IMG/VR virus record: IMGVR_UViG_3300032331_003054
Span: 1-28,515 of that record
DNA: 28,515 nt
Direction: 5' to 3' (one strand)
DNA from: a virus
Shown here: positions 930 through 23,536 of the stretch, piece by piece
Numbering within the stretch: position 1 is the stretch's first letter
How the letters are laid out: each line of letters begins with the position of its first letter
Position numbers and translations under genes: made by a program
Notes under the pieces: generated by a model
What the model was told of the DNA's origin: nothing
Database searches by the model: none
The model's input: only the letters and a program-made list of their open reading frames with translations

Positions 930-961
930 TAAATATAATAAAGAAAGGCCCGGAGGCCAAA
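930..961 (-). promoter_or_regulatory. Candidate promoter (TTTG-N20-TATATTTA) for the phosphoesterase gene
   Basis: On the minus strand TTTG (958-961) lies exactly 20 nt upstream of TATATTTA (930-937), which ends six bases before the ATG at 923. This resembles the Bacteroidota vegetative promoter TTTG / TAnnTTTG with 17-23 nt spacing. The spacer contains the terminator hairpin of the upstream gene. The same layout recurs at 3910-3941, 7012-7043 and 12326-12357. Seen: motif and spacing. Inferred: promoter function. Confidence 0.5.
947..958 (-). terminator. Hairpin terminator after the 969-1184 gene
   Basis: Minus-strand GGCC-TCCG-GGCC forms a four-base-pair GC stem with a tetraloop, followed by TTTCTTTATTATA. 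It lies 11 bases past the stop codon at 969. It is a one-base loop variant of the TTCG hairpins elsewhere in the window, and the TCCG loop belongs to the stable UNCG class. The short stem makes strong termination uncertain. Confidence 0.6.
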
Positions 962-968
962 CTTATTT

Positions 969-1184
969 TTAATCTTCATCGTCATCATCACCATAAGGTG
1001 CTTCGTTCCATGTTTCGAATCGGTCAGTGCGTTCCATTTCTTCCCAATCCCAATCATCAACTTCCTCTTCGTCCTTATATTTACTGATGACTTCTATTAT
1101 ATGGTGTGGTATTAATGTATTACCACTATATATTATCCCACATAGTTCTGCTTCTATTGCTTCTAATATGTCGTTTTTTCTCAT
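969..1184 (-). CDS. Small acidic hypothetical protein
   Basis: This 71-residue protein has a helical N-terminal half and an extremely acidic C-terminal half (DEEEVDDWDWEEMER, ending GDDDDED). No family is recognised. Its ATG overlaps the stop of the 315-residue gene upstream in an ATGA arrangement, suggesting translational coupling, and a hairpin terminator follows its stop. The acidic tail could mimic nucleic acid or bind a basic partner, but that is only a suggestion from composition. Confidence 0.8.
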   Translation of the reverse strand: MRKNDILEAIEAELCGIIYSGNTLIPHHIIEVISKYKDEEEVDDWDWEEMERTDRFETWNEAPYGDDDDED

Positions 1185-2128
1185 GCTCCAATTGTGGTCA
1201 ATTCATATTCTATTGATGGTACTGCTTCTTCTACTGGTTGGTCAGCCATAGTTAAATCATATCTATCAGCTAATTCTCTAAGACTATAAACTAATGAGTT
1301 TGATTTTTCTTTACCATTTAATCTTTCATCATTCATTTTCTTAGTTTCCTCAGTACCTAAATCATAATTTGGTTTGATACAACTTCTAAAATCAGTTATG
1401 ATTACATCTAAAATATGAGATGGTAAATTACATTCTGATGAGTCTATTCTCTCATCAACCGCATTCCAAAATGATGTTTCACGTTGATGGTCTGGGTCTA
1501 TGTTTTTAAACGCTGCTACTTTAACTCCAGTTTTTCTATTCATAGCGTAAATCAAAATACCTCGTCTTGTATAATTGTGATATTGATACTCTTCACTTGT
1601 AGAGGCAGTACACCATTTAGTTCCAGCTCCATACTTACAAGATGACTCATACGTTAATGGTTTAACAACTAACCAATCATTTTCATCATAGAGTTTAATA
1701 ACAAATTTCTCTAAATCCTTACTCATCAATTTCAACTCAGCAACTGATAATGCGCCTTGAAGTTCTTCTAAACTCTTATATGATGTAACGTCTTTATTCT
1801 CAATTAAACCTCTTTCATTTAATTCAATAAACTTATTAACATCCTCTAAAACAGCATCATGAACATCATCTAATATGTTATGAATTGCTACTAATGTTTG
1901 GTCTGAGATTTTATCTATATTCTCTTTTTTAAACCCAGCGTCAATAAGATCAGTAGCATATCTCCTTTTTGAGTACCAATCATTCTTCATCTGTTTATTG
2001 AAGTTGTGCTTATGTAAATTGAATGCTAACTCAACATACTTAGGCTTCTCAAATAAAATGCTGAGTGCATCTATTAACCCTATATTGAATTGAGGGTTTT
2101 GTTCTTTAAGTGTACTTAATTTGCTCAT
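1181..2128 (-). CDS. Conserved-looking phage protein with a KYGAGTKWCTA motif
   Basis: This 315-residue protein has a charged, helical N-terminal half and a central block, KYGAGTKWCTA at residues 165-175, followed by an aromatic run (YQYHNYTRRG) and a strand-rich segment. Blocks of the GTKWC kind recur, to my recollection, in uncharacterised proteins of environmental phages; I do not know a function. No signal peptide or membrane segment is visible. The start is preceded by the leader TATAGTTATG, which matches the AGTTATG ending of many other starts here. Its last codons overlap the acidic gene (ATGA). The conserved C, K and W could form an active or binding site. Confidence 0.8.
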   Translation of the reverse strand: MSKLSTLKEQNPQFNIGLIDALSILFEKPKYVELAFNLHKHNFNKQMKNDWYSKRRYATDLIDAGFKKENIDKISDQTLVAIHNILDDVHDAVLEDVNKFIELNERGLIENKDVTSYKSLEELQGALSVAELKLMSKDLEKFVIKLYDENDWLVVKPLTYESSCKYGAGTKWCTASTSEEYQYHNYTRRGILIYAMNRKTGVKVAAFKNIDPDHQRETSFWNAVDERIDSSECNLPSHILDVIITDFRSCIKPNYDLGTEETKKMNDERLNGKEKSNSLVYSLRELADRYDLTMADQPVEEAVPSIEYELTTIGA

Positions 2129-2164
2129 AACTATAATATAATAACCTTTATTTACTTTTCCAAT

Positions 2165-2446
2165 CTATTCTTTATTGGCTCTTTCTTTTAAATCCTCTAT
2201 AAACATGTCACGTTGACCGATCAAATATTTTTCACGTTCAACTAATCGAGCACGTTCCTCATCAGTTAGTTTTAATACTAACTCTTCTTTTTCTTGTATC
2301 ATTTGTCTATACTCATCCATTTGTTTATTGAATAGAGTATTTTGATAATACATTATACCAACCAAAATAATGATTGTAAATGACTGTTCTTTAAGTTTAC
2401 TTAAGAATGTTTCGCCATAACTACTTACTTTAGTTTCTTTTTCCAT
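2165..2446 (-). CDS. Single-pass membrane protein with coiled coil
   Basis: The 93-residue product has a short cytosolic N-terminus, one hydrophobic segment at about residues 23-40 (FTIIILVGIMYYQNTLF) and then a long charged heptad-rich helix to the end. This topology is typical of inner-membrane spanins, which act at the last step of lysis of Gram-negative hosts, but also of other phage membrane proteins. It lies away from the endolysin gene, although two lipoproteins that could be outer-membrane partners are present in the window. Membrane topology is well supported; the spanin idea is weak. Confidence 0.75.
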   Translation of the reverse strand: MEKETKVSSYGETFLSKLKEQSFTIIILVGIMYYQNTLFNKQMDEYRQMIQEKEELVLKLTDEERARLVEREKYLIGQRDMFIEDLKERANKE

Positions 2447-2461
2447 ATTAATAAATATGGT

Positions 2462-2590
2462 TTACTCCTCATCAAATAAATCCTTCCCATCATAATCAGG
2501 ATGATTTTTTTCCATATAGTCTAATCCTAAAACCATTAACACTGCTATTATAGCTGCTAATGTAAATGAAATAATTGCTGCTGGTATCAT
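2462..2590 (-). CDS. 42-residue membrane protein
   Basis: A short frame opens at ATG 2588-2590 and stops at TAA 2462-2464. It has one strong hydrophobic helix (residues 3-23, IPAAIISFTLAAIIAVLMVL) followed by an acidic tail (HPDYDGKDLFDEE). Its ATG overlaps the TGA of the zinc-ribbon gene (ATGA), the same coupling used by many genes here, and it fills what would otherwise be a gap. Size and topology would suit a small holin, antiholin or other membrane accessory protein; nothing shows which. Confidence 0.65.
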   Translation of the reverse strand: MIPAAIISFTLAAIIAVLMVLGLDYMEKNHPDYDGKDLFDEE

Positions 2591-2814
2591 AAAAATAATT
2601 TTTTAATAATTTCTAATTTTGATTTAAACTCTATTTTCTCAAATTTGTTGTTTGCATTTAATGTCCAAGCAAACATACCCTCACTCCAACGTTTATAAGT
2701 ACAAAGTCTACATACTAAATTCTTACCTTGATGTTGAGGTCGTTGGTATGGTCTTGGGTTGGTAGTGAACATAAATAATGGATATGTTCTTTTACAGTCA
2801 AAGCATTTCTTCAT
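2587..2814 (-). CDS. Small protein with two CxxC zinc knuckles
   Basis: The 75-residue product carries CFDC (C4, C7) and CRLC (C35, C38), spaced like a four-cysteine zinc ribbon, with a basic, aromatic linker (PRPYQRPQHQGK). The rest is helical and lysine-rich. Such proteins often bind nucleic acid, or resemble HNH-nuclease zinc cores that have lost catalytic residues; no HNH histidine is evident. The start overlaps the ligase stop (ATGA), so it is probably translated together with the ligase. Confidence 0.75.
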   Translation of the reverse strand: MKKCFDCKRTYPLFMFTTNPRPYQRPQHQGKNLVCRLCTYKRWSEGMFAWTLNANNKFEKIEFKSKLEIIKKLFL

Positions 2815-3905
2815 TCGTAACTCTCTCTATCAATTTTAATTACATATGGAAATCTTGGAACACCATCTGGTGTTAAATTAAAGTACTTAACTGTAGCTGA
2901 TTTACCAATTAACTCATTTTTATTGTTCCACATCGCTTTACATTCCTCCCAATTAAATTTAGGTGATGAATTGAATATATGACCTGTCTTACTCTTAAAT
3001 ATAAATGAACCTACCATTCCAGTTTTATTACCTAAACCTTCAACTATATCTAATATAGTATATTCCTCGTCTATAAACGATTTATACTTAAGTAATGACT
3101 TAGAACGTTTCGATTCATATTTTTTATCTAAACGCACCATTAACCCCTCATATCCCTCACTAACATAATCAATATACCATTTATCAACCCACTCAGCTGT
3201 ATGAACGATACTTGTTCTTACCAACACACAACACTTAGGTAAAGACATTTTGTTTAAAGCACTATGTCGCTCACTAAACACACCATCATGATTAGGTAAA
3301 TCATAAATGTGATATTGGATTGATTCTTTACTTTTAACTAAATCATTACTTGTTGGTTTAGTTTTCTTAACTAATGAACAAATAGCGTTAAAGTCATTTG
3401 CAAATTTATCAGCATACAACTCACCATCAAATATCAAATCAGGATTAGATTCAAATAATGGTTTTAATGATTCAAAAATGTGAGGTGCTGAGATGATTTT
3501 TTTACCATTTCTACTCCACATACCATCTGCTCTAACAATACATCTAATACCATCTAATTTAGGTTGACTATAAACTGGGTATTCAATTTTGTCTTTATGG
3601 TCTTCAAATTTATGAGCTAACATTGGATTAAAAAACTTAGGTGTATCAATATCTTTTATTGACTCATAACTACCTAACTCTAATTTTTTAGTCCACATTG
3701 CTTTAGCTTCAGCTAATGCTTGTTGTTCAGGTGTGGTAGCGTTTTTCTTACCTGTATTCTTACCTGAACAGCATGTCCATTCAGAAGTTGTTTTAACTCC
3801 ATCAGTATAACCTGATATTGTTCTAAAACAATTGTTTTCTATTTCAACGGTCCACTCATTGATTTTACCGTTTACTGCGCGTTTAAATAATGTGTTTAAT
3901 TTCAT
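2811..3905 (-). CDS. ATP-dependent DNA ligase
   Basis: The 364-residue protein contains the nucleotidyltransferase motifs of ATP-dependent ligases in order: PKLDGIR (residues 115-121, with K116 the likely adenylated lysine), FDGELY (159-164), EGLMVR (253-258) and LLKYK (271-275), followed by a C-terminal OB-fold-like region. It would seal nicks during phage replication and repair. Residues 1-90, ahead of the catalytic core, resemble a WGR-type domain (KINEWTVEIE, then a GKN-rich turn and a helical TTPEQQALAEAKAMW block). The start at 3905 is only four bases after a TATATTTA box, so the message may be leaderless. T4 gp30 plays this role in T4, but the length and the N-terminal domain differ, so no gene symbol is assigned. 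Confidence 0.9.
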   Translation of the reverse strand: MKLNTLFKRAVNGKINEWTVEIENNCFRTISGYTDGVKTTSEWTCCSGKNTGKKNATTPEQQALAEAKAMWTKKLELGSYESIKDIDTPKFFNPMLAHKFEDHKDKIEYPVYSQPKLDGIRCIVRADGMWSRNGKKIISAPHIFESLKPLFESNPDLIFDGELYADKFANDFNAICSLVKKTKPTSNDLVKSKESIQYHIYDLPNHDGVFSERHSALNKMSLPKCCVLVRTSIVHTAEWVDKWYIDYVSEGYEGLMVRLDKKYESKRSKSLLKYKSFIDEEYTILDIVEGLGNKTGMVGSFIFKSKTGHIFNSSPKFNWEECKAMWNNKNELIGKSATVKYFNLTPDGVPRFPYVIKIDRESYE

Positions 3906-3909
3906 GATC

Positions 3910-3941
3910 TAAATATAACAAAGAATGGCCCGAAGGCCAAA
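3910..3941 (-). promoter_or_regulatory. Candidate promoter for the DNA ligase gene
   Basis: TTTG at 3938-3941, 20 nt spacer, TATATTTA at 3910-3917, then GATC and the ligase ATG. The spacer contains the TTCG hairpin. With a start site about four to seven bases past the box, transcription would begin at or next to the start codon. Confidence 0.55.
3926..3939 (-). terminator. UUCG hairpin terminator after the GAF-protein gene
   Basis: Minus-strand TGGCC-TTCG-GGCCA gives a five-base-pair stem capped by the very stable C(UUCG)G tetraloop, followed by TTCTTTGTTATATTT. It lies 24 bases past the stop at 3964. Identical copies occur at 7028-7041 and 12342-12355. CUUCGG hairpins are well known in phage T4 transcripts. 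Confidence 0.65.
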
Positions 3942-3963
3942 CTTTATCCATGAAATGGTGTGT

Positions 3964-4566
3964 TTATTTTTTACTATGTAGGTAATTACTAATTATATTA
4001 CCAATTGCACCTACTTTTTGACGAATAAAGATCCACTCGTCTTTAACTATTTTATGTTTCTTTTCAATATAATGAATACCCATCACACCTATGATACGTC
4101 CATCTAAATCAGTTAATGATAATAAATAAATTGATTTACATTTACCACCTGTTGTTGTGTTAAGTAAATATGAATTAGCTGCCTCAGCATCTTCAATTAT
4201 TACTTCACCATGTTCATATAATTCAGATAATGGTTTATTAAATAATGATACAGGTATGTTTTGATAAACATTTTTAACTGATTCAATGTTTGGGTTTAAT
4301 ACCTCATAGAATATAGAGAATTTTTGAATCGATTTACCAGTTGGATAAAAGTGTCCTCCATTATGAAATTGAGCTATAAATATTTGGTCACATTCTAATT
4401 CATCAAGTATTATATCTAATTGATGTTCAATTTGTTCATTATACTTAATAGCATCAGGCATTGGATCAGCTGATTTCTTTTTAAATTTAGCCTTAGCCCA
4501 CTCCAATAATACAGGTCCGAATACGGATGTGATCAATGCGATCGCAATAGGTATTAATATTTCCAT
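3964..4566 (-). CDS. Membrane-anchored GAF-like sensor protein
   Basis: The 200-residue product starts with one hydrophobic helix (residues 2-23, EILIPIAIALITSVFGPVLL), then a basic stop-transfer stretch (KAKFKKK). Residues 45-195 look like a single GAF-type domain: an N-terminal helix, FIAQFHNGGHF, an acidic middle, CKSIYLLSLTD and GRIIGVMGIHYIEKK, then a closing helix. GAF domains bind small ligands. No kinase, cyclase or other output domain is present. It begins one base after the endolysin stop codon and a terminator follows it, so endolysin and GAF protein form one unit. A role in sensing cell state for lysis control is an inference from this linkage; GAF assignment is by fold-like pattern only. 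Confidence 0.65.
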   Translation of the reverse strand: MEILIPIAIALITSVFGPVLLEWAKAKFKKKSADPMPDAIKYNEQIEHQLDIILDELECDQIFIAQFHNGGHFYPTGKSIQKFSIFYEVLNPNIESVKNVYQNIPVSLFNKPLSELYEHGEVIIEDAEAANSYLLNTTTGGKCKSIYLLSLTDLDGRIIGVMGIHYIEKKHKIVKDEWIFIRQKVGAIGNIISNYLHSKK

Positions 4567-4567
4567 C

Positions 4568-5392
4568 TTACTTTAGTAAATTATAGTATTCATTAAAATG
4601 CTTTAAACGATCAGGTAAACCAATTGTACCGCCGTTTACTCGTTTAGTAACCGCAGTGACAGTTGCTTCATCAGCTCCTTTATCACATATTGACCATAAT
4701 TTGTTTGAATCGAAGAAAAACGCTGCTGACGCTAATGGGTATTTAGTCGCTACTAAATCAGGGTTAGTAACTGTGTCTTCACCTATAAACTTAGCAAAAC
4801 TAGTATAATTAGATTTACCAGTTAATTGAATATATCCACGTCCACGGAATTTATACCCTTCACCTGTTGATTCGTCTCCATTACCCATTCTTGCTCCATA
4901 AACACGAGATGCAATTTTTTCTGGTTGGCGAGCATAAGAAGTAGCTAAATCACCAGGAAAATATTTTCCAAATGTTCTCTTCAAACCATCAACTGAGTAG
5001 TTTAGGTTCTCACTTATTGCTTTGAATCCACCTGATTCGTGTCCACATTGTGCTAAGAAATGAGCTAGACGTAGTGGGTTTGTAATATTGAATTTAGCTG
5101 CTGTGTCTGGTATTTGAGCTATCACAGCATCAGGAATATGTCCTTTTAAAGCATCTAATTTGAATGAACTAGGAGGAATAACTACTGACGCAGCGGGAGT
5201 TGGAGCTGTCGCCCCAAACATTTTACCCCACGTACCATCTCCTACAATGCCGTCAGCTGTTAATCCGTTTTTAGCTTGCCATTCTTTGACTTTAGTTTCT
5301 GTCATTGGTCCAAAACTTCCATCAGCTCCTAAACCTAATAATGTTTGAAGTTGTTTTACTTCTTCTCCTTTCGATCCGTTTTTCAATAACAT
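4568..5392 (-). CDS. Endolysin: peptidoglycan-binding domain plus GH19 lysozyme/chitinase domain
   Basis: The 274-residue protein has a PG_binding_1 domain (residues 1-60, NGSKGEEVKQLQ to DGIVGDGTWG), a Pro/Ala linker (61-76) and a GH19 catalytic domain (about 80-274). The GH19 signature is clear: FLAQCGHESGGF with likely catalytic E119, SENLNY with a possible second acid E128, and FRGRGYIQLTG. It would cleave host peptidoglycan at lysis. There is no signal peptide, so release needs a holin or similar. I start it at the ATG at 5392, which places LLKNGSKGEE at the N-terminus as usual for this domain; an in-frame ATG ten codons upstream would add a hydrophobic MIFITINNLL extension and lies in the probable promoter. 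Confidence 0.9.
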   Translation of the reverse strand: MLLKNGSKGEEVKQLQTLLGLGADGSFGPMTETKVKEWQAKNGLTADGIVGDGTWGKMFGATAPTPAASVVIPPSSFKLDALKGHIPDAVIAQIPDTAAKFNITNPLRLAHFLAQCGHESGGFKAISENLNYSVDGLKRTFGKYFPGDLATSYARQPEKIASRVYGARMGNGDESTGEGYKFRGRGYIQLTGKSNYTSFAKFIGEDTVTNPDLVATKYPLASAAFFFDSNKLWSICDKGADEATVTAVTKRVNGGTIGLPDRLKHFNEYYNLLK

Positions 5393-5408
5393 AAGTAAAT
5401 TGTTTATA

Positions 5409-5422
5409 GTGATAAATATCAC
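5409..5422. promoter_or_regulatory. Palindrome upstream of the endolysin gene
   Basis: GTGAT-AAAT-ATCAC is a perfect 5-bp inverted repeat with a 4-bp centre, 16 bases upstream of the chosen endolysin start. On the minus strand it contains GATATTTA, a variant of the TATATTTA box. It could be a promoter element or an operator for a dimeric repressor. It is the only element between the lipoprotein stop and the endolysin start. Confidence 0.3.
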
Positions 5423-5429
5423 CTACTCT

Positions 5430-5747
5430 TTACTTTTCGCAATCACATTTAACAATTTCTTCATTCATTCCTAAACAAAATGCAATCTGTCCTATAGCTG
5501 GTTTATTATTAGTATAATACATAATTACATTCTCAGTTACTACTTGCCAAGCCATATCAATATCTCTATCTACATTTCTCTTTACAGATACAACTTTGAT
5601 AGGCCATGCCTTAGTAGTGTCTGTTGGGATGATAGGTTGTGGACTCACATTAACTGTGTCAACACGGGAAATAAGAATTGGTGGTGCTGTGATCAAATCA
5701 CAACTAATTAAACCTATACTTAATAATGTTAATAATACTTTTTTCAT
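5430..5747 (-). CDS. Putative lipoprotein next to the endolysin
   Basis: The 105-residue product begins with a lipoprotein signal: MKK, a hydrophobic core and the lipobox LISC with the lipidated cysteine at residue 16. The mature protein would be about 90 residues, rich in Thr, Val and Pro at first and ending with cysteines in CDCEK. Because it lies directly upstream of the endolysin and is an exported lipoprotein, it is a candidate outer-membrane spanin, although it could equally be a superinfection-exclusion or other envelope lipoprotein. Its start overlaps the stop of the 5744-5938 gene (ATGA). Confidence 0.75.
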   Translation of the reverse strand: MKKVLLTLLSIGLISCDLITAPPILISRVDTVNVSPQPIIPTDTTKAWPIKVVSVKRNVDRDIDMAWQVVTENVIMYYTNNKPAIGQIAFCLGMNEEIVKCDCEK

Positions 5748-5938
5748 CTTGGTTCTACTTTTATTTGTTTTGCTTCTTCTTTATCTAATATAAATGCTAA
5801 GCCTGAGCCTACAGCCACTAATAATGAGTTGTCACTAACGTGGCATACTTTGATTTCACCCCCACTACTAAATCTATTATCGATTGTCTCGATAACATTA
5901 TAGACTCTAGGATATATCGTTACTTCATTTAATCTCAT
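5744..5938 (-). CDS. Hypothetical 64-residue protein
   Basis: The product is small, soluble and strand-rich (VYNVIETIDNRF, IKVCHVSDNSLLVAVGSG). No family is recognised. It overlaps the phosphoesterase stop upstream and the lipoprotein start downstream, both by four bases, so it is locked into a four-gene coupled chain (6986 to 5430). Confidence 0.75.
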   Translation of the reverse strand: MRLNEVTIYPRVYNVIETIDNRFSSGGEIKVCHVSDNSLLVAVGSGLAFILDKEEAKQIKVEPR

Positions 5939-6663
5939 AATATAGTTGGATAATCACCTACTTTAAACTCTCCATCCTCATAAATCAAAAACTTATTTGA
6001 GGTATCAAATGTGTCAATAAAATAATATCTACCACCTGTTGATTTGCCTTCAATATCAATCTTTTTAACATGAGTGTGACCTACTACTTGAATATAATCT
6101 TCTTTTAAGAACGTATCTCGATTACCAGCCATTAATGCTTGAGGACGAATCCAAATTGGTGTTTGTGTTTTAGAATTACCGTATGGATCAATTCCGTAAA
6201 ACATAAACTTATTAGGTTGATACTCCCAAATGGCGTTCACAAAATCAGCTATTGTGCCTGAATCTACTCCTGGTTCATATTTGTTTTGGTATGTCAACCA
6301 ATCACTTCCAATACCAGCATGTGTAAATAAGATATTATCTAATTGATAACACATTTGTAGATGATGTTTATTTTCTTGGAGTAACTGTCTAATAGCTGGA
6401 GCAGCACCTGCTTTATATCCTGAGTATGTCTCACCGCCTGGGTAGTAATGATAGTCATGATTACCAACTAACATAGTTACCTCACACTCACCTTTCTCTT
6501 TAAACTCAATTATCTCTTTAAAGTTAAGCATTTGCTCAGCAGGGCCAATATCAAAACTATCAAAGTAATCTCCTATAAAGATAACTCGATCTGCTTGTTC
6601 TTGGAACACAATGTCTTTCCAAACATTGCGTCCATGAATATCTCCTAATACTATTGTTTTCAT
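5935..6663 (-). CDS. PPP-type metallophosphoesterase (protein-phosphatase-like)
   Basis: The 242-residue protein has the classic PPP-phosphatase blocks GDIHG (D8, H10), GDYFDS (D32), GNHDYHYY (N68, H69), a THAG block (H115) and GHTH (H196, H198). Lambda phosphatase, a Ser/Thr/Tyr protein phosphatase of about 220 residues, shares this layout, so the product may dephosphorylate proteins or small phosphoesters. The central region between HAG and GHTH is long and aromatic. Start and stop overlap neighbouring genes by four bases. The family is secure; protein versus nucleotide substrate is not. Confidence 0.9.
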   Translation of the reverse strand: MKTIVLGDIHGRNVWKDIVFQEQADRVIFIGDYFDSFDIGPAEQMLNFKEIIEFKEKGECEVTMLVGNHDYHYYPGGETYSGYKAGAAPAIRQLLQENKHHLQMCYQLDNILFTHAGIGSDWLTYQNKYEPGVDSGTIADFVNAIWEYQPNKFMFYGIDPYGNSKTQTPIWIRPQALMAGNRDTFLKEDYIQVVGHTHVKKIDIEGKSTGGRYYFIDTFDTSNKFLIYEDGEFKVGDYPTIL

Positions 6664-6986
6664 TTTACTAATTTCTTAACTTTAATTATGAAACGACGTT
6701 TAAAACATTTCATTGATGTTGAAAATGTATTAACAGGTGTTTCAGTTTTTAACTCACTAAATGCTTTCTTTAATGCAATCTTAATTTTAGGATTAACTTT
6801 AATTAACTCAAAAAATTTATCTAAATGAGAAGATGATTTTGAATTCCATCTACCATTATAAAATTCAGTTAATGTTACTCGAGTATCACTTATTGTATCA
6901 AATAAGTAAACTGTAACTGTTTTTTCCCAACTGTCTGAAACGAATTGTAATTCTTGATTACCTGAAAGTGTGACTGATTTGCTCAT
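6660..6986 (-). CDS. Hypothetical 108-residue basic protein
   Basis: The N-terminal half is strand-rich (VTLSGNQELQFVSDSW, TVTVYLFDTISD) and the C-terminal half basic and helical, ending in KCFKRRFIIKVKKLVK. No family is recognised. The start at 6986 is preceded by AATAAAAGTTATG and by the hairpin/promoter unit at 7012-7043, making this the first gene of the transcript that carries the second phosphoesterase, the lipoprotein and probably the endolysin. Confidence 0.75.
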   Translation of the reverse strand: MSKSVTLSGNQELQFVSDSWEKTVTVYLFDTISDTRVTLTEFYNGRWNSKSSSHLDKFFELIKVNPKIKIALKKAFSELKTETPVNTFSTSMKCFKRRFIIKVKKLVK

Positions 6987-7011
6987 AACTTTTATTATTT
7001 TTTATTATATC

Positions 7012-7043
7012 TAAATATAACAAAGAATGGCCCGAAGGCCAAA
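7012..7043 (-). promoter_or_regulatory. Candidate promoter for the 6986-to-3964 transcript
   Basis: TTTG (7040-7043), 20 nt spacer holding the TTCG hairpin, TATATTTA (7012-7019). The ATG at 6986 follows 25 bases later, after an A-rich leader, so unlike the ligase copy this one allows a short 5' untranslated region. Confidence 0.55.
7028..7041 (-). terminator. UUCG hairpin terminator after the 7065-7283 gene
   Basis: TGGCC-TTCG-GGCCA on the minus strand, 23 bases past the stop at 7065, followed by TTCTTTGTTATATTT. It matches the copies at 3926-3939 and 12342-12355 exactly in stem and loop. Confidence 0.65.
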
Positions 7044-7064
7044 CATTTGTTATGAAAAGTTTAT

Positions 7065-7283: not shown

Positions 7284-7530
7284 TGATCACCTCCTCTAAT
7301 GTTTTCCATTCTGCTTCTACTTCCCCTTCTTCATTGAATTCACCTGTAGCGATTGCTAAATGAATTACTGCGTTTTCATCTTTACCAATTGCAACTGCTC
7401 CAAAGCCCTCACAAAGATAATAGTTAGTCATTGTACTGTTAGGCATTTCAGAAGCGATTGCTTCAATATCAAAATCCCAACCCATTTCCGGATCATTTTT
7501 TTCGACCCATTGTTTGCTAAATTCAGCCAT
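7276..7530 (-). CDS. Hypothetical 84-residue acidic protein
   Basis: The product has an acidic, tryptophan-containing N-terminus (WVEKNDPEMGWDFDIEAI), a strand-rich middle (YYLCEGFGAVAIGKDENAVIHLAIA) and an acidic tail. No family is recognised. The leader AAAAATAAGTTATG fits the start consensus of this genome. Its final codons encode the strong ribosome-binding site of the next gene. Confidence 0.75.
   Translation of the reverse strand: MAEFSKQWVEKNDPEMGWDFDIEAIASEMPNSTMTNYYLCEGFGAVAIGKDENAVIHLAIATGEFNEEGEVEAEWKTLEEVING
7284..7295 (-). promoter_or_regulatory. Near-perfect Shine-Dalgarno site
   Basis: Minus-strand AGGAGGTGATCA immediately precedes the ATG at 7283, with GGAGG six bases from the start codon. 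This is the full complement of the conserved GAUCACCUCCU end of 16S rRNA. It is exceptional here, since most starts have only A-rich leaders. It lies within the last codons (EEVI) of the upstream gene. Confidence 0.75.
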
Positions 7531-7552
7531 AACTTATTTTTTATTTATAAAC

Positions 7553-7584
7553 TCAATATAATAAAAATAGGCCCGAAGGCCTAT
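7553..7584 (-). promoter_or_regulatory. Possible promoter overlapping the 7565-7586 hairpin
   Basis: TATATTGA (7553-7560) occupies the place of the TATATTTA box after a hairpin, 22 bases before the ATG at 7530. The position of the upstream TTTG holds ATAG, so only half of the motif is kept. Weak candidate. An exact T4-type late octamer TATAAATA also lies nearby at 7542-7549. Confidence 0.3.
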
Positions 7585-7586
7585 TT
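7565..7586 (-). terminator. Rho-independent terminator after the 7591-7905 gene
   Basis: Minus-strand AAATAGGCC-TTCG-GGCCTATTT is a nine-base-pair perfect stem with the stable UUCG loop, followed by a T-rich tail (TTATTATATT). It begins four bases past the stop codon at 7591. This is the strongest of the GGCC-TTCG hairpins in the window. Confidence 0.85.
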
Positions 7587-7590
7587 ATTT

Positions 7591-7905
7591 TTATTTTCTT
7601 TTAGCATTCTTATCAAAGTCTGCTTGTGCTTGTTTATTTGCTTCATGTTCAGGTGAGGCTTTCCATCCTACGTTTCCTTTTTCTAACTCAATGTTACCAT
7701 ACTTTTTAAGGAAATCAGCTTTCCAATCTTGGAAATCATCTTCGTCTTTAATTTTTCTAGATGAACCCATACCTATATTAGTTGGTAAAAGATTTTTATC
7801 ACCTAAATCAGAAAATTTAAGTGACTTAACAGTAATTTTACTTTCATTCATTACTTCTTCAAGTAATAATTGATTGCGTCTCCACTCGTATATGTTAAAT
7901 GCCAT
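7591..7905 (-). CDS. Hypothetical 104-residue charged protein
   Basis: The protein starts MAFNIYEWRRNQLLLEE, then has a helical, highly charged body with repeated Lys and Asp/Glu and a lysine-rich end. No membrane segment or known domain is seen. It is expressed from its own small unit: a TATATTTA box at 7921-7928 in front, the leader AAAATAAAACTATG, and a strong terminator right after its stop. Confidence 0.75.
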   Translation of the reverse strand: MAFNIYEWRRNQLLLEEVMNESKITVKSLKFSDLGDKNLLPTNIGMGSSRKIKDEDDFQDWKADFLKKYGNIELEKGNVGWKASPEHEANKQAQADFDKNAKRK

Positions 7906-7920
7906 AGTTTTATTTTATTA

Positions 7921-7928
7921 TAAATATA
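7921..7928 (-). promoter_or_regulatory. TATATTTA box upstream of the 7591-7905 gene
   Basis: The octamer TATATTTA lies 15 bases before the ATG at 7905. A TTTA rather than TTTG is found about 19 bases further upstream, and no hairpin intervenes. Candidate -7 element of a Bacteroidota-type promoter; in this AT-rich setting chance is possible. Confidence 0.3.
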
Positions 7929-7933
7929 TAATT

Positions 7934-8128
7934 TTATTTCTCTATACTAAATGTACTATTCTTATACACCTTAATTTGATCAGATAGATAATGTCTAACT
8001 ATTCCTCCATCACAATGTACTATACACCAAATATCATTCTCCCAAGTGCCTCCATTAGTGACATAAATGGCATAACCCTCTATATCACCTTCAACTATTA
8101 CTGGTATTGGGTTCTTGAATTCTAACAT
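7934..8128 (-). CDS. Hypothetical 64-residue strand-rich protein
   Basis: The product (IPVIVEGDIEGYAIYVTNGG, then WENDIWCIVHCDGG) looks like a small all-beta fold with one CxxxC pair around residues 35-39. Similar short proteins are, to my recollection, common in environmental phages, without function. Its ATG shares a base with the stop of the 27-codon gene upstream (TAATG). Confidence 0.75.
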   Translation of the reverse strand: MLEFKNPIPVIVEGDIEGYAIYVTNGGTWENDIWCIVHCDGGIVRHYLSDQIKVYKNSTFSIEK

Positions 8129-8211
8129 TAGAATAAATCATCTAGTTCTTTAGGGTACTCAGCAATAATATGCTTCTTAACAAATCGTTTCCACCAATTA
8201 TTCAATCTCAT
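8128..8211 (-). CDS. Tiny 27-residue basic/aromatic protein
   Basis: A short frame starts at ATG 8209-8211 inside the end of the ClpP-like gene and stops at TAA 8128-8130, where TAATG joins it to the next gene. The product starts MRLNNWWKRFVKKHII and ends acidic (KELDDLF), which gives an amphipathic helix. It fills the only gap between two coupled genes, which supports it, but the length is too short for certainty. Confidence 0.45.
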   Translation of the reverse strand: MRLNNWWKRFVKKHIIAEYPKELDDLF

Positions 8212-8770
8212 CAACCATCCCATACTTAAGTGCTTCTTCTGCTGTGAAATACCAATCACGTCTTGATTTTTTAACATCGTCTAATTGTTTTTGAGATATA
8301 GTTGAGTTTAATAATAAGATTTCATCATATTGTTTCATTACACGATTACATTCATCTAAATCATCTTTAATAATAGATAATTTATCAAATTGAGGATAAC
8401 TATTTAAAGCCTCATGATACATAAACGTAGCATATTTACTCGCTATTCGTTTCCACCCAGCAGCAAATATTGGTAACCCCATTGACATAGCGTAACCATA
8501 ACAGTAAGTATGAATTGGTGTTCTAGAAGTTTTAATCACACCTATTAAAGCGAAACCATCATAAATTACTCCACCAAAACTATTAATGATTAATTTAATA
8601 GGTTTACGCTCAAAGTCTTTAGAGACTGAGTCTTGCTCCTCATCATACTCATTAGCATCTAATATAAATTGAATAACTTCTTCAACTGATTCATTATCAA
8701 TATCATTACTCAAAACAATACTTCTGAATTGGTCTTCTCTATCGAAGTATCTATTTTTTCTGCTAGTCAT
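8198..8770 (-). CDS. ClpP-like (S14) serine protease
   Basis: The 190-residue protein aligns with ClpP throughout: IKLIINSFGGVIYDGFALI, then YAMSMG with nucleophile S96, MYHEA with H119, and RRDWYFTAEEALKYGMVDEI with D172. All three members of the catalytic triad are present, so it is likely active. ClpP normally degrades proteins with an AAA+ partner; in phages S14-type proteases serve in prohead maturation or host-protein turnover. No capsid or scaffold gene is visible nearby, so the target is open. Its ATG shares a base with the stop of the lipoprotein gene upstream (TAATG). Confidence 0.9.
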   Translation of the reverse strand: MTSRKNRYFDREDQFRSIVLSNDIDNESVEEVIQFILDANEYDEEQDSVSKDFERKPIKLIINSFGGVIYDGFALIGVIKTSRTPIHTYCYGYAMSMGLPIFAAGWKRIASKYATFMYHEALNSYPQFDKLSIIKDDLDECNRVMKQYDEILLLNSTISQKQLDDVKKSRRDWYFTAEEALKYGMVDEIE

Positions 8771-8949
8771 TATCTATGTTTTTTAGGTGAGCATTGATGT
8801 TGAAGTTGGTTTTTACCTTTATTAACTCGCTTAGTTTGTTTATACATTGTTTGTTGTCTATTACTATGATGTTTATAGTTATAGCCTTTTTGAGGAGCTG
8901 AGCATGAAGCTAAAACAGCTACAATTAAAAATAAAATTAGTTTTTTCAT
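8770..8949 (-). CDS. Short basic lipoprotein
   Basis: The 59-residue product begins MKKLILFLIVAVLASC, a lipoprotein signal with the lipidated cysteine at residue 16. The mature part of about 44 residues is very basic and rich in Gln, His and Lys. I use the start at 8949, because this gives the canonical MKK n-region and an ATGA overlap with the upstream gene; a start five codons earlier is possible. Topology and size would suit an outer-membrane spanin subunit, but its partner is not obvious. Confidence 0.75.
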   Translation of the reverse strand: MKKLILFLIVAVLASCSAPQKGYNYKHHSNRQQTMYKQTKRVNKGKNQLQHQCSPKKHR

Positions 8950-9164
8950 ATTATTTCCTCCCATTCTGGTTCTTTAATTTCTTGTAAAAAGAATAATGTC
9001 TCACCTTCTTGATATATTTGATCTGATTCAGTATATTCCTTCCATAGATCAATTAAATCTTGTCTTATTTGACCTCCATTTAAATTGTCTATAAATTTAC
9101 CAAACCATACCTTTCGTTTTAATAGATAAGGTATACCATTAAGAGTAAGTACATCAGTCCTCAT
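8946..9164 (-). CDS. Hypothetical 72-residue protein
   Basis: A soluble protein with a basic N-terminal half (LLKRKVWFGKF) and an acidic C-terminal half (EGETLFFLQEIKEPEWEEII). No family is recognised. It overlaps its upstream neighbour by 11 bases and the lipoprotein by four, in a coupled chain that runs from 9288 to 7934. Confidence 0.75.
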   Translation of the reverse strand: MRTDVLTLNGIPYLLKRKVWFGKFIDNLNGGQIRQDLIDLWKEYTESDQIYQEGETLFFLQEIKEPEWEEII

Positions 9165-9288
9165 TACTTGATCTATATTTCTTTCTATTGTATACTTTAC
9201 CTGAAGGTTTTGCCTTCTGTATCATTCTACGTCTCACTATTTGAGCAACGTGTCGTAATGATAAACCGTTTAAATTACTATTTTCCAT
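9154..9288 (-). CDS. Small basic protein
   Basis: The 44-residue product (MENSNLNGLSLRHVAQIVRR, then Lys/Arg-rich) could form one helix and a basic tail able to bind nucleic acid. The ATG at 9288 is chosen: a start 20 codons upstream would place the first codons within the terminator hairpin at 9321-9342 and the TATATTTA box at 9307-9314. The A-rich leader after that box fits the genome's style. Confidence 0.65.
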   Translation of the reverse strand: MENSNLNGLSLRHVAQIVRRRMIQKAKPSGKVYNRKKYRSSNED

Positions 9289-9306
9289 GTGTTTTTTATT
9301 ATATAA

Positions 9307-9338
9307 TAAATATAACAAAAAAGGCTTGGAGAGCCAAG
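9307..9338 (-). promoter_or_regulatory. Candidate promoter for the 9288-to-7934 chain
   Basis: TATATTTA at 9307-9314 is preceded, after exactly 20 nt, by CTTG (9335-9338), one base off TTTG and inside the terminator stem. The spacing matches the four better copies in the window although the hairpin sequence is different, which argues that spacing is selected. Confidence 0.45.
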
Positions 9339-9342
9339 CCTT
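9321..9342 (-). terminator. Rho-independent terminator after the 9366-9692 gene
   Basis: AAGGCTTGG-CTCT-CCAAGCCTT on the minus strand is a perfect nine-base-pair stem followed by TTTTGTTATATT. It lies 23 bases past the stop at 9366. Strong canonical terminator. Confidence 0.88.
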
Positions 9343-9365
9343 AATCATGAAACGTTAAATGAAAT

Positions 9366-9692
9366 TTACTTCTTCTCAGCTGACATTTTAGGAGCTGGCT
9401 TCTTTTTAAAGTATTTTTTCTTTTTCTTTGCAACTTCCTCAGCCGTTTTAGGGGTGTCAATAACTGGGTGCATTGATTTATTTTCCATCACTCGAATTTT
9501 AGATTGTAACACTGTTACTTCATTGCGAAGTAATTGACGTCCGGCGTTAGCCATTTCTAAAGATTCTTGAAGTGCTTCAATTTGAGAATTAGCCGCGTCT
9601 AATTCATTTACAAGAAATTGATGTTTTGATGCCAACATTACTGCTGTGGTTGTTGCTACTACTAAAGCAGCTGATAAGATAATTACTAACAT
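9366..9692 (-). CDS. Membrane-anchored coiled-coil protein with a lysine-rich tail
   Basis: The 108-residue product has an N-terminal hydrophobic helix (residues 2-20, LVIILSAALVVATTTAVML), a heptad-rich coiled coil (about 25-75, VNELDAANSQIEALQESLEM and on) and a C-terminus loaded with lysine and proline (KKKKKYFKKKPAPKMSAEKK). The layout is like an inner-membrane spanin or other anchored coiled coil; the basic tail is unusual and could bind nucleic acid or lipid A. The leader in front is a TAAA tandem repeat. It has its own strong terminator. Confidence 0.75.
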   Translation of the reverse strand: MLVIILSAALVVATTTAVMLASKHQFLVNELDAANSQIEALQESLEMANAGRQLLRNEVTVLQSKIRVMENKSMHPVIDTPKTAEEVAKKKKKYFKKKPAPKMSAEKK

Positions 9693-9700
9693 ATTTATTT

Positions 9701-9724
9701 TTTATTTATTTATTTATTTATTTA
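9701..9724. repeat. (TTTA)6 tandem repeat in a leader
   Basis: Six uninterrupted copies of TTTA on the plus strand (TAAA on the minus strand) lie directly upstream of the ATG at 9692 and overlap the stop codon of the 9722-9889 gene. An A-rich unstructured leader favours translation in Bacteroidota, and such a microsatellite could change length by slippage. Confidence 0.85.
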
Positions 9725-9889
9725 CATTCTATCTGTCTTAACTCTAAAATGAGCTAATTCAATTATTTCATTTTGGCTTTTATGTGGGAGAGATATTTTA
9801 TACTCTTTTATATACTGGTGTAATTTATCTACATCCCCAGCTGTGTGTGCTTGGTAAAATATTTCTTCAATGCGTTCTTCGTTTGACAT
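9722..9889 (-). CDS. Hypothetical 55-residue helical protein
   Basis: A short frame from ATG 9887-9889 to TAA 9722-9724. The product (MSNEERIEEIFYQAHTAGDV, DKLHQYIKEY) is helical and acidic at the N-terminus, like small proteins starting with an EERIEEI-type helix that I recall from other T4-like phages. No function is known to me. It starts five bases after the GIY-YIG gene stop. Confidence 0.7.
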   Translation of the reverse strand: MSNEERIEEIFYQAHTAGDVDKLHQYIKEYKISLPHKSQNEIIELAHFRVKTDRM

Positions 9890-9894
9890 TTATT

Positions 9895-10476
9895 TTAGTT
9901 TTTATTTTTCCAAATGTATCCATAAATGGATTTTCTCTTTCCAGAGCAACATTCTGATATTGCCCCTTGTGATGTTTTACCTAATGACTTAGCTGCTAGT
10001 ATCCTATTCTCCCATTCTTTAATAAAATTACCCTCTAAATCATATTGTAGGACTGGTTTAGAATTTGCTAACATCAATTTACTACCAGTACCTTCTTTTT
10101 TAGGTTTTCTCATTTTTTGTTTTGTCTCTTCAGAATGAGGACCTTTTGGTTTCCTTAATTTTTCTTTATACTCTTCAGATTTTTGATTATTATTTTTCAT
10201 CTTATTTCGAGTAATTTCAGAGTGATAATTAACTCCACCACCTCCTTTATTTTTATTCATTAACTCAAATCCCCATTGTCTGAATTGTTCTATCCAATAT
10301 GATTCTAAAGGTTCCCATTCTTTATAATTATAACTATCAATTTGGTCTATAATAGTATATATTATATTTTTTCCAAATTTATGCTTATGAGCGTTTTTTC
10401 GGGATGTTTTAGTTTTACCTATATAAACCTTATTAAAATCATTATAGCAATTTTCAATTAAATACATGTATGTCAT
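9895..10476 (-). CDS. GIY-YIG homing endonuclease with NUMOD modules
   Basis: The 193-residue product has an N-terminal GIY-YIG domain (MYLIENC and KVYIGKT at about residues 4-22, likely catalytic E58 in LESYWIEQF, then LMNKNKGGGG). Two NUMOD3-like DNA-binding repeats follow (YHSEITRNKMKN, PHSEETKQKMRKPK), and a C-terminal NUMOD1/IENR-like module (PVLQYDLEGNFIKEWENRIL to SIYGYIWK). Such free-standing endonucleases cut intronless alleles and spread themselves between phages. ATG 10476 is chosen, as it follows the GATATTTA box and puts the GIY strand at the usual place; 10467 is also possible. No split host gene is visible around it. Confidence 0.88.
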   Translation of the reverse strand: MTYMYLIENCYNDFNKVYIGKTKTSRKNAHKHKFGKNIIYTIIDQIDSYNYKEWEPLESYWIEQFRQWGFELMNKNKGGGGVNYHSEITRNKMKNNNQKSEEYKEKLRKPKGPHSEETKQKMRKPKKEGTGSKLMLANSKPVLQYDLEGNFIKEWENRILAAKSLGKTSQGAISECCSGKRKSIYGYIWKNKN

Positions 10477-10481
10477 GTATA

Positions 10482-10489
10482 TAAATATC
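10482..10489 (-). promoter_or_regulatory. GATATTTA box ahead of the homing endonuclease
   Basis: A one-base variant of the TATATTTA box, five bases before the chosen ATG at 10476. No TTTG at a suitable distance is obvious. It suggests that the mobile gene carries its own promoter, as homing endonucleases of T4-like phages often do. Confidence 0.3.
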
Positions 10490-10505
10490 ACAATAATTGA
10501 CTTCG

Positions 10506-10715
10506 TTACTCATAAAAACTATTTCTTTTAAATTTATAAATCATATTAAATGTAGCCAAATTATTTCTAATTTCTTTTACATTCATTTTTTTAAATTTCC
10601 AATATTCTACAAAGTTGCTTATTATTGTTTTAGCGCACACTAACTGCTCCTCATTTTCTATGGAGTTAAGTATTTTGATTATTTTATTTATGTGTTGTCT
10701 AAATACTTGTTCCAC
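10506..10715 (-). CDS. Hypothetical 69-residue helical protein, GTG start
   Basis: The product is helical and basic at the C-terminus (EYWKFKKMNVKEIRNNL, YKFKRNSFYE). No family is recognised. Translation must begin at GTG 10713-10715 or at a later codon, since no ATG is available upstream. The GTG stands four bases after a TATATTTA box, the same distance as for the ligase gene, which supports this start and suggests a leaderless transcript. Confidence 0.6.
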   Translation of the reverse strand: MEQVFRQHINKIIKILNSIENEEQLVCAKTIISNFVEYWKFKKMNVKEIRNNLATFNMIYKFKRNSFYE

Positions 10716-10719
10716 TTTG

Positions 10720-10727
10720 TAAATATA
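10720..10727 (-). promoter_or_regulatory. TATATTTA box four bases from a GTG start
   Basis: TATATTTA-CAAA-GTG parallels TATATTTA-GATC-ATG of the ligase gene. No TTTG is seen 19-21 bases upstream, so the promoter reading is weaker here. Confidence 0.35.
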
Positions 10728-10741
10728 TGGATATACATATA

Positions 10742-11083
10742 TTACTCTTTATAATTTTTCTTAAATTCAGGATCTTCTAACCAATGTCTTTCACCTGTTC
10801 TTAATCTTGCTTTACTTTTATAATCATGAGCGTAAACATAACCTCGAGGGCATTTCTTTTTCATAACCATATTTGTCTCAAACAAATAAACTGGTCCATT
10901 ATAATCCTGGTGATTAGGTGATTTGTCTTCATTCCAATAACATATTCGTCTAGGTCCATTATAACTTCTAAATCGATTGCATGTTACTCTAAACCAACTA
11001 CCATCTTCTAACTGTATTTCAGTTGCTCGTTGAGTTGGGAAATCATAAATTAATTTAACTGTGTGTCCTGTTTTTTCAGCCAT
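10742..11083 (-). CDS. Hypothetical 113-residue basic protein
   Basis: The protein is rich in Arg, Lys and aromatic residues (WFRVTCNRFRSYNGPRRICYW) with cysteines at about residues 35, 48 and 79. It looks like a compact beta-rich fold, possibly nucleic-acid binding. No family is recognised. It begins one base after the stop of the four-helix membrane protein gene, so the two are probably co-translated. Confidence 0.75.
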   Translation of the reverse strand: MAEKTGHTVKLIYDFPTQRATEIQLEDGSWFRVTCNRFRSYNGPRRICYWNEDKSPNHQDYNGPVYLFETNMVMKKKCPRGYVYAHDYKSKARLRTGERHWLEDPEFKKNYKE

Positions 11084-11084
11084 A

Positions 11085-11423
11085 TTACTTCCAAAATAAT
11101 TGCACCATTAATATAATTAAACTTAATACTAAACAAATAGCTGTTTTCATTGTTATTGGTTCTCCAAATAATGATACAGACATAATTGTAAACATAACTG
11201 TACCTATAACAAAACCAATCAATCTAGATGGCCATAACTGTCCATTAAAATGTTCAACCATTAAACTAACTGATGTCATGAATAATATTGAAATAGGAAT
11301 GCCTAACAATACCATAACCCACTGGTGGTTCTTCATCCACTCAAACTTCCACCTCCCTTGTAATTGAAGAAAAGTTAATGTTTGAGCTAACACCCCTACT
11401 AACATCCCTAATATTAATTTCAT
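11085..11423 (-). CDS. Four-helix integral membrane protein
   Basis: The 112-residue product has four hydrophobic helices at about residues 3-21, 35-56, 68-86 and 93-111, with short charged loops. Size and layout recall small multidrug-resistance-type transporters; the C-terminal half (GEPITMKTAICLVLSLIILM) has the small-residue look of that superfamily. It lacks the conserved N-terminal glutamate of SMR transporters in helix 1, so transport is doubtful. Proteins of this type are, to my recollection, frequent in T4-like phages. Its start overlaps the upstream stop (ATGA). Confidence 0.75.
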   Translation of the reverse strand: MKLILGMLVGVLAQTLTFLQLQGRWKFEWMKNHQWVMVLLGIPISILFMTSVSLMVEHFNGQLWPSRLIGFVIGTVMFTIMSVSLFGEPITMKTAICLVLSLIILMVQLFWK

Positions 11424-11626
11424 ATATATTCTTTTTCTAATTTACCGTATGTGTATACTCTTAATGTCGCTACTTGGTTATCATTATAAAGTGGTTTTGC
11501 TAAATCTAAGTCATCTGAGAATATTGCTTCACCTTGTTTGAATCCAATAAATGCTTGACATTGGTCATTCAAAACAATAAATTCAGGTTCTTTAGCTATA
11601 TCAAATACTCTTTTTTTCTTTCTCAT
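11420..11626 (-). CDS. Hypothetical 68-residue protein
   Basis: A strand-rich product with a basic start (MRKKKRVFDIAKEPEFIVL) and a central QAFIGFKQGEAIFSDDLDLA segment. No family is recognised. It overlaps both neighbours by four bases within a coupled run from 11856 to 10742. Confidence 0.75.
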   Translation of the reverse strand: MRKKKRVFDIAKEPEFIVLNDQCQAFIGFKQGEAIFSDDLDLAKPLYNDNQVATLRVYTYGKLEKEYI

Positions 11627-11856
11627 AGTTTAGCATCATATTCAGGTAACACTCCTAAATCCTCAATCTTAACCCACACTCTCATCTTCCATAAATCAAC
11701 TTTCAAATTGTCAATCATTGTCTCTCCCTCATCAGTTGCCTTAGCTAAAATGAGTAAACATGTATCTAATTGTTCAATTGCAGATGGAACATCTTTTACT
11801 TTGATAAATTGTAATGCTTTCTTCCACGTGTTGGTAATCTTCCCTACTTTCTTCAT
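11623..11856 (-). CDS. Hypothetical 77-residue helical protein
   Basis: The product is mostly helical (MKKVGKITNTWKKALQFI, AIEQLDTCLLILAKA) and could form a helical bundle with a partner. No family is recognised. The leader AAAATAAGTTATG fits the genome's start consensus. It is three bases from the small membrane-protein gene upstream. Confidence 0.75.
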   Translation of the reverse strand: MKKVGKITNTWKKALQFIKVKDVPSAIEQLDTCLLILAKATDEGETMIDNLKVDLWKMRVWVKIEDLGVLPEYDAKL

Positions 11857-11859
11857 AAC

Positions 11860-11982
11860 TTATTTTATTAGATGTATAATTAAATTTAATATCGCTGATA
11901 TAGCGAATACACATATTGTTGATATTCCTATTGTAGCAGCTACAATAAAAAACACTTCATCTGGTTTTATACCTTTTTTCAT
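11860..11982 (-). CDS. 40-residue membrane protein
   Basis: A short frame from ATG 11980-11982 to TAA 11860-11862. After a charged N-terminus (MKKGIKPDEV) nearly the whole protein is one hydrophobic helix (FFIVAATIGISTICVFAISA and on). The leader AAAATAAAGGTTATG is identical to that of the SWIM gene start at 12311, which supports translation. Function unknown; it could be a holin-like or regulatory membrane peptide. Confidence 0.65.
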   Translation of the reverse strand: MKKGIKPDEVFFIVAATIGISTICVFAISAILNLIIHLIK

Positions 11983-11987
11983 AACCT

Positions 11988-12311
11988 TTATTTTAATTGT
12001 TTTATATGTTTACAAACTCTATCTTTAGCTCTATAATAACCAGGACATGAACAATGATATTTATCACCTACCTTTTTGATAACATACTTACTTGAACCAT
12101 CTGATGATTTTACTTCAATAGTATTAGGTTTTGGTTTTGTTTGTGTACCATCATCTTTAATCCAAACAATATCATCAAATGTAGTACCTAATGGGACATT
12201 AACCCACCATGGACAAATAGCTATTTTGTCTACTAAATTAAATAATACAGGAGGAATAAAACCACCCACTACATAATGTTTACCGTCTTTGAAATAATAA
12301 CTTCTTTCCAT
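11988..12311 (-). CDS. Small SWIM zinc-finger protein
   Basis: The 107-residue product ends in a SWIM-type motif, C-x-C-x10-C-x-H, formed by C87, C89, C100 and H102 (YHCSCPGYYRAKDRVCKHIK). SWIM modules bind DNA or proteins and occur in transposases, helicase-related and bacterial regulatory proteins; here the module is almost alone, after a strand-rich N-terminal region (WWVNVPLGTTFDDIVWI). The ATG at 12311 is chosen; an ATG 15 codons upstream would lie inside the terminator and promoter unit. It is the first gene after that unit. Confidence 0.75.
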   Translation of the reverse strand: MERSYYFKDGKHYVVGGFIPPVLFNLVDKIAICPWWVNVPLGTTFDDIVWIKDDGTQTKPKPNTIEVKSSDGSSKYVIKKVGDKYHCSCPGYYRAKDRVCKHIKQLK

Positions 12312-12325
12312 AACCTTTATTTTCC

Positions 12326-12357
12326 TAAATATAACAAAGAATGGCCCGAAGGCCAAA
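12326..12357 (-). promoter_or_regulatory. Candidate promoter for the 12311-to-10742 genes
   Basis: TTTG (12354-12357), 20 nt spacer with TTCG hairpin, TATATTTA (12326-12333), then GGAAAATAAAGGTT and the ATG at 12311. The leader of 14 bases is short but contains an AAGG that could act as a weak ribosome-binding site. Confidence 0.55.
12342..12355 (-). terminator. UUCG hairpin terminator after the 12362-12517 gene
   Basis: TGGCC-TTCG-GGCCA on the minus strand, six bases past the stop at 12362, followed by TTCTTTGTTATATTT. Third identical copy of this hairpin in the window. Its closeness to a stop codon supports the small gene 12362-12517. Confidence 0.68.
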
Positions 12358-14690: not shown

Positions 14691-14721
14691 TAAATATAAT
14701 AAAAAATAAGTTAAAGCCAAT
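14691..14721 (-). promoter_or_regulatory. Candidate promoter after the glycan cassette
   Basis: ATTG (14718-14721), 19 nt spacer, TATATTTA (14691-14698), 14 bases before the ATG at 14676. No clear hairpin follows the last cassette gene, so the cassette transcript may read through into these genes while a new start is added here. Confidence 0.4.
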
Positions 14722-18591: not shown

Positions 18592-18592
18592 A

Positions 18593-23520: not shown

Positions 23521-23536
23521 ATAACCTAATATAATA

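Follow-up and report, generated by a model that had tools for sequence, protein, structure and literature searches.

Composite elements which end one transcript and start the next have been described in both phages and bacteria. As cited in PMC4503421, the promoter-early stem-loops (PeSLs) of T4-type phages are cassettes combining a terminator with an early promoter. In Salmonella, as described in PMC7055797, the terminator at tufB-secE (Brandis 2019) and those at related operons overlap the promoter of the following operon and affect expression and fitness. Here we describe a nested version of such an element in the virus record IMGVR_UViG_3300032331_003054, the whole 28,515 bases of which (30% GC, with genes almost all on the minus strand) are referred to as the window, or G000. 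Flavobacterium-type phages appear, on strong sequence evidence, to use repeatedly one 32-base stretch both to stop the RNA of one gene and to start that of the following gene. If the function that we infer is correct, a promoter can have a terminator nested between its two recognition elements, with its −33 sequence forming part of either signal.

In T4-like myoviruses the PeSLs likewise bring a terminator and a promoter together in the short gaps which separate small co-directional genes, and they are repeated genome-wide; in the window, too, a stem-loop and a promoter occupy a single intergenic cassette, the earliness of these promoters being putative. Within the first 50 kb of phage RB49 we found three clear cassettes, in each of which the hairpin and U-tract are complete before the promoter, TTGACA beginning 17–18 nt past the hairpin. 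That arrangement is tandem and employs a sigma-70 promoter, whereas the present units are 32 nt long and bear a Bacteroidota-type promoter, with the hairpin lying not upstream of a −35 element but within the spacer, nested between −33 and −7. Composite terminator/promoters are thus already known, and it is the nested geometry which differs from the RB49 cassettes tested. The Salmonella elements share with the phage units the overlap of terminator and promoter; they are described at a few chromosomal operon joints, whereas the phage element is serially repeated with a fixed nested geometry. The GC hairpin and U-rich tail are those of intrinsic terminators in general (PMC6978380), except that here the predicted point of release lies on a promoter. 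In the open literature, closed papers being outside the search, we found no description of a nested element in Bacteroidota phages.

We consider it probable (approximately 0.83) that the units are Bacteroidota-class sigma-A-type promoters the spacer of which has been made into the intrinsic terminator of the upstream gene. The promoter would comprise TTTG at about −33, a spacer of 20 nt, and TAnnTTTA at about −7. Polymerase arriving from upstream would transcribe TTTGGCC...GGCC, and the RNA would fold into a GC hairpin, often with a stable UUCG loop. The transcript would then be released by the U-rich tail (TTCTTTGT, continuous with TATATTT), either shortly upstream of the −7 box or inside it. 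Holoenzyme would then be recruited to the same DNA, the next RNA beginning some 5 nt past the box; in certain units this point coincides with the A of the start codon, and the RNA would be leaderless. What makes nesting feasible is that these phages have GTTTGGC as their extended −33 element. The 5' arm would begin with the GGC of this element, so that a 3' arm to match it and a U-rich tail are all that the spacer would have to supply. The benefit might lie in compactness, in protection of the promoter from read-through, or in the re-use of terminated polymerase.

The window contains five fused units. The preliminary description of this DNA, made from the letters alone, placed all of them correctly (four with TTTG-N20 and one with CTTG at 9307) but did not state that all five are read on the minus strand; the order which it gave, that is, stop codon, hairpin, box and next start, was borne out. 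For comparison, relatives were retrieved via the DNA ligase, among them records of 155–163 kb; below, G002, G006, G007, G009 and G018 denote relatives, and numbers with an L denote further loci. The first unit (930–961) has TTTG at 961–958, the hairpin GGCC-TCCG-GGCC at 958–947, the U-rich tail TTTCTTTAT and the box TATATTTA at 937–930, 6 nt before the ATG of a phosphoesterase gene (273–923); a similar unit precedes this gene in G018, G002 and G007. The second (3910–3941) has TTTG at 3941–3938, the hairpin T-GGCC-TTCG-GGCC-A at 3939–3926, the tail TTCTTTGT and the box TATATTTA at 3917–3910, 4 nt before the ATG of the DNA ligase (2811–3905), for which there is an ortholog series in the relatives. 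The same 32-mer, identical over its full length, recurs at 7012–7043 (hairpin 7041–7028, box 7019–7012, ATG of gene 6660–6986 25 nt on) and at 12326–12357 (hairpin 12355–12342, box 12333–12326, ATG at 12311 of a gene ending at 11988, 14 nt on), both with an ortholog in G018. The remaining unit (9307–9342) represents a second register, in which a 9-bp stem, AAGGCTTGG-CTCT-CCAAGCCTT at 9342–9321, is followed by the tail TTTTGT and the box TATATTTA at 9314–9307. Its −33 element, CTTG at 9338–9335, lies inside the 5' arm, giving CTTG-N20-TATATTTA, and its predicted target is an in-frame ATG (9288) of the ORF 9154–9348, 18 nt past the box.

Exact copies of TTTG-N20-TATATTTA occur four times in the window (961–930, 3941–3910, 7043–7012 and 12357–12326), as against a mean of 0.05 and a largest value of 1 in 100 dinucleotide shuffles. 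The more detailed TTTGGCC-N3-GGGCC-N9-TATATTTA also occurs four times, with an expectation of 0.00. With four exact units found against 0.05 expected, the pattern is far above chance and chance is excluded. A search of the window permitting two mismatches was uninformative (27 found, 26 expected).

The promoter half of the proposal is best judged in the relatives. In F. psychrophilum the sigma-A box TAnnTTTG lies at −12 to −5, and the layout TTG, about 20 nt, TAnnTTT (PMC9723704) is common to the Bacteroidota sigma-A promoters and the phage units. TTTG stands at N20 from coding-strand TATATTTA sites in 25/51 cases in G002, 24/52 in G006 and 31/62 in G009, and only 0–2 times at nearly all other offsets. 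The main exception, TTTG-N14 in G002 (eight times), was rejected as a separate spacing, being mostly TTTGGCTTTG, a second TTTG 6 nt inside the same promoters. Because TTTG sits at N20 from TATATTTA and almost nowhere else in these genomes, the geometry of the putative promoter is well supported. The same sharp N20 peak for a −33 TTG is present in the cultured Flavobacterium phage vB_FspM_immuto (hereafter immuto), and the genome-wide scan against shuffled sequence which the preliminary description had suggested, run in five relatives and this isolate, gave strong enrichment. TATATTTA mismatches the Bacteroidota box at its last base only; full matches to TAnnTTTG exist in the fused unit of L131 (TATCTTTG) and in immuto (TATCTTTA). 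Compared with the Bacteroidota promoters the phage promoters add the GTTTGGC −33 element, a last box base of A, a spacer hairpin in a subset, and GATGT before the box in the class which has no hairpin. Members of the latter, with the signature TTTGGC...GATGT-TATATTTA, lie at a median of 8 nt past the stop codon and 22 nt before the ATG. Hairpin-free promoter-like sites which the preliminary description had missed are found on the same strand of the window as the units, for example at 14691–14720 (minus strand), where TTG-N19-TATATTTA stands 14 nt before the ATG of gene 14272–14676.

One might regard the units as plain intrinsic terminators, TTTG and TATATTTA being by-products of the AT-rich genome and the U-tract. 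The low GC content, the overlap of the box with the T-rich tail, and the existence of standalone terminators in these phage genomes would all fit; but TTTG at N20 is just as sharp in the hairpin-free promoters, and hairpins are nearly absent at other spacings, and on these two counts the explanation was rejected as very improbable. Moreover, the 5' flank here is TTT, which does not pair with the U-tail; ordinary terminators have A-tracts in that place, as at 7565–7586. The window has six intergenic terminators, five of which are the fused units, and this sixth, a further hairpin of the GGCC-TTCG-GGCC type absent from the preliminary description, has an A-tract where TTTG would stand. It takes the A-tract/U-tract form AAATAGGCC-TTCG-GGCCTATTT at 7586–7565; within the whole element (7553–7586, minus strand) ATAG replaces TTTG and TATATTGA replaces the box. 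The same form is found in G002 and G018, and it reads as a terminator whose promoter is lost or weak.

The terminator half was judged from the spacers. In 28 of 100 exact promoters the spacer holds a stem of four or more GC pairs (mean 1.4 and maximum 6 in 1000 rounds of spacer shuffling), and column permutation among the promoters, which keeps their composition, also leaves the strong stems unexplained. The promoters without a strong stem showed no hairpin excess in TTTG plus spacer by column permutation. Since they keep TTTGGC...GATGT-TATATTTA, the hairpin is evidently not needed by the promoter, and a general hairpin requirement was rejected. Where TTTGGCC and TATATTTA stand at the fixed spacing, a pairing GGCC/GGTC 3' arm is present in 18/22 distinct cores with U-rich tails and in 0/21 others (P=1.4e-8). 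The loci were not chosen for hairpins; the P value should be taken as a guide, since some cores are related and hence not independent. Were the stem required by the promoter, the nature of the tail would be immaterial; because the stem tracks it, the stem reads as a terminator. A GC-rich stem followed by a U-rich tract is the form of an intrinsic terminator, and the location is appropriate, all 28 hairpin units following a co-directional upstream gene, the stop codon of which is 2–27 nt upstream in 25. Both halves of the reading offered in the preliminary description, promoter and terminator, have survived tests that could have failed them, namely the N20 peak and the association of stem with U-tract.

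These data also bear upon the suggestion that the hairpin is itself a promoter element and that no termination is involved: a phage RNA polymerase might recognise it as a DNA hairpin, after the manner of phage N4, or the structure might tune promoter strength from within the spacer. The stem does lie at a fixed register in the promoter, and its arms cover part of the −33 element. In an N4-type system every promoter of the class would carry the hairpin, but some 70% of those having the same −33 element, spacing and box show none beyond chance. Furthermore, the stems follow the U-rich tails, and with two registers and at least 34 different stems no fixed hairpin could be recognised. The suggestion was rejected because stems follow U-tails and most class members are hairpin-free; we give it very little credence. 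As a separate observation, when the 12 nt preceding TTTG are included, the non-hairpin (non-U) promoters of G009 show better folding than do controls with permuted columns (P=0.002), unlike those of G002 and G006, and this is unexplained.

Several points weigh against the proposal that promoter and terminator are fused. In the window clade the box ends in A and not in the G of TAnnTTTG. The tails are moderately U-rich, with 5–7 T of 9 in many units, and four of the window units have stems of 4–5 bp with predicted energies of −6.6 to −9.2 kcal/mol, which could be weak terminators. Several of the 28 stems (for example G006 136428, 138633 and 139640; G018 65347) are accompanied by GATGT-type tails which are not U-rich, and in the ligase orthologs L082/L083 the unit is GGGCTC/GAGCCC with TTG at N21. 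Stems with GATGT-type tails, for example G006 136428 and G018 65347, are probably chance stems. Since the U-tracts are moderate and the stems short, termination at the fused units may be partial.

The arrangement is general within this phage group. In 1.9 Mb of DNA from the relatives, not selected for hairpins, we found 53 distinct sites with N=20 at which TTG and TAnnTTT[AG] enclose a hairpin and U-tract, four with N=21, and no more than two with any other N (14–27). A reversed-box control on the same DNA produced 11 matches at N23, which we provisionally read as the same units seen via the sequence past the box. A scan of the viral collection for GGCCTTCGGGCC-N-TATATTTA gave 49 distinct contexts at gap 9 as against 15 at all other gaps; TTT precedes 46 of the former and TTA three, while TTT precedes none at the other gaps, and the control box TAAATATA occurred once at gap 9. 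Loci with the gap-9 unit share proteins with G002 in 50/51 cases, the exception being the short locus L021. A scan of the genome collection with TATNTTTG showed no peak at gap 9. As to a host origin, the pattern gave no matches in 196 genomes from the order to which a Flavobacteriia metagenome-assembled genome (MAG) belongs, and 680 kb of DNA from the same order as this MAG had no hairpin at any spacing, a weak control in that this DNA also lacks the N20 peak. Our catalogue for all loci contains 99 distinct units, which between them use two registers and 34 different stem pairs and keep TTG-N20-box; some of these loci were fetched by hairpin patterns, and the count is a catalogue rather than a test of enrichment. 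In the first register the stem starts at the G of TTTG (GGCC, GGCTCC, GGCCC); in the second, of the GGCTTGG-N4-CCAAGCC kind, TTG is held within the 5' arm. Immuto has 36 TTG-N20 promoter-like sites, eight of which carry a hairpin and U-tract with differing stem sequences, and on that strand none was found at other spacings. Hairpins of this phage (vB_FspM_immuto_2-6A, NC_055915; host Flavobacterium sp. LMO8) include those at 22069, 37295, 64499, 67962, 69174 and 70243. In Bacteroidota phages, nested terminator-promoters would have been assembled repeatedly from differing stems.

The unit preceding the DNA ligase gene illustrates its turnover. Along the ortholog series the stem is GGCC/GGCC, a GGCC/GGTC wobble, GGCTCC/GGAGCC, GGCTTGG/CCAAGCC or decayed, and in L097 the slot is occupied by a hairpin-free GATGT promoter. 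The gene upstream of the ligase unit comes from one of three or more families, between which BLAST gave no match. As the slot keeps its unit while the upstream gene family changes, the unit seems to outlast its neighbours, as proposed for the PeSLs, the breakpoints of these swaps being putative. Arbiol (2010) and Comeau (2014) reportedly found gene neighbours swapped around the PeSLs of T4-type phages. The units might accordingly be regarded as mainly recombination cassettes of this kind, short regulatory homologies for gene swaps which termination and initiation render viable. Besides the constancy of the ligase unit, the three identical 32-mers between unrelated genes of the window and an apparent homogenisation of stem types per genome (GGCTCC, for instance, in 5/7 hairpin units of G009) would agree with this; yet 32 nt is short for homologous recombination, and the hairpin-free promoters, which have nearly as much sequence in common, could do so just as well. 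As the main function we think it unlikely; it is, however, compatible with the fused terminator and promoter and not exclusive of it.

The box lies within 6 nt of the ATG in 12/27 hairpin units as against 6/70 others (P=1.5e-4). Gaps of 4–6 nt, as in the window (boxes 3910–3917 and 930–937) and in relatives, predict leaderless mRNAs, for example that of the DNA ligase, since by the box position of F. psychrophilum a 4-nt gap would place the RNA start at the A of the ATG. In that bacterium only 5.5% of mRNAs are leaderless (PMC9723704). In single-molecule work, bacterial polymerase that had terminated at an intrinsic terminator often remained bound to the DNA and was able to restart at promoters close by (PMC6978380), which would make a direct hand-over possible. 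In such a relay, RNA would be released atop the next promoter core and the polymerase passed straight to the next start, coupling serial genes without a shared RNA and often leaderlessly; we offer this as a speculation more doubtful than probable.

The origin of the window was deduced from its relatives. A BLAST search of it against phage records gave no match, and Rfam and tRNA scans found nothing. G002, one of the 155–163 kb genomes, encodes a terminase, tail sheath, gp43-like DNA polymerase and GroEL; between this terminase and the one of immuto the identity is 61%, and the annotation of immuto includes T4-like Gp20 and Gp23. The window is a piece of a T4-like, Flavobacterium-type myovirus with immuto as a cultured relative, and since the terminase match is to a cultured Flavobacterium phage, the host is presumably also of Flavobacterium type. 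The units furnish a promoter and terminator model for an environmental phage group whose transcription appears unstudied, and the existence of a cultured member and its host permits direct tests. They may also serve as compact, naturally occurring insulators between serial genes, and as a clean setting in which to ask whether termination feeds re-initiation.

Other genes of the window specify a glycoside-hydrolase endolysin, a Clp-type protease, and phosphoesterases. Glycosyltransferases, an aminotransferase, epimerases and methyltransferase-like genes form a sugar-nucleotide and glycosyltransferase block at 14722–26743 (minus strand), and a similar block is annotated in immuto. Possible homing endonucleases are an HNH endonuclease-like gene at 13307–13948 and an ORF at 9895–10491 resembling, by eye, a GIY-YIG endonuclease (both on the minus strand).

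A second terminator arrangement recurs outside this phage group, in the contigs L005, L008, L010, L017 and L045, where GGCCTTCGGGCC has AAGG/CCTT extensions and TATATTTA stands at gap 18. A further motif, ATATTTATAA, is found in G002 (L154–L162), G006, G009, G007 and immuto, often after standalone terminators. Of its coding-strand copies, 21/21 in G002 and 22/23 in G006 have an ATG within 30 nt, the other strand having 3 and 0 copies, respectively; the motif is a candidate late promoter.

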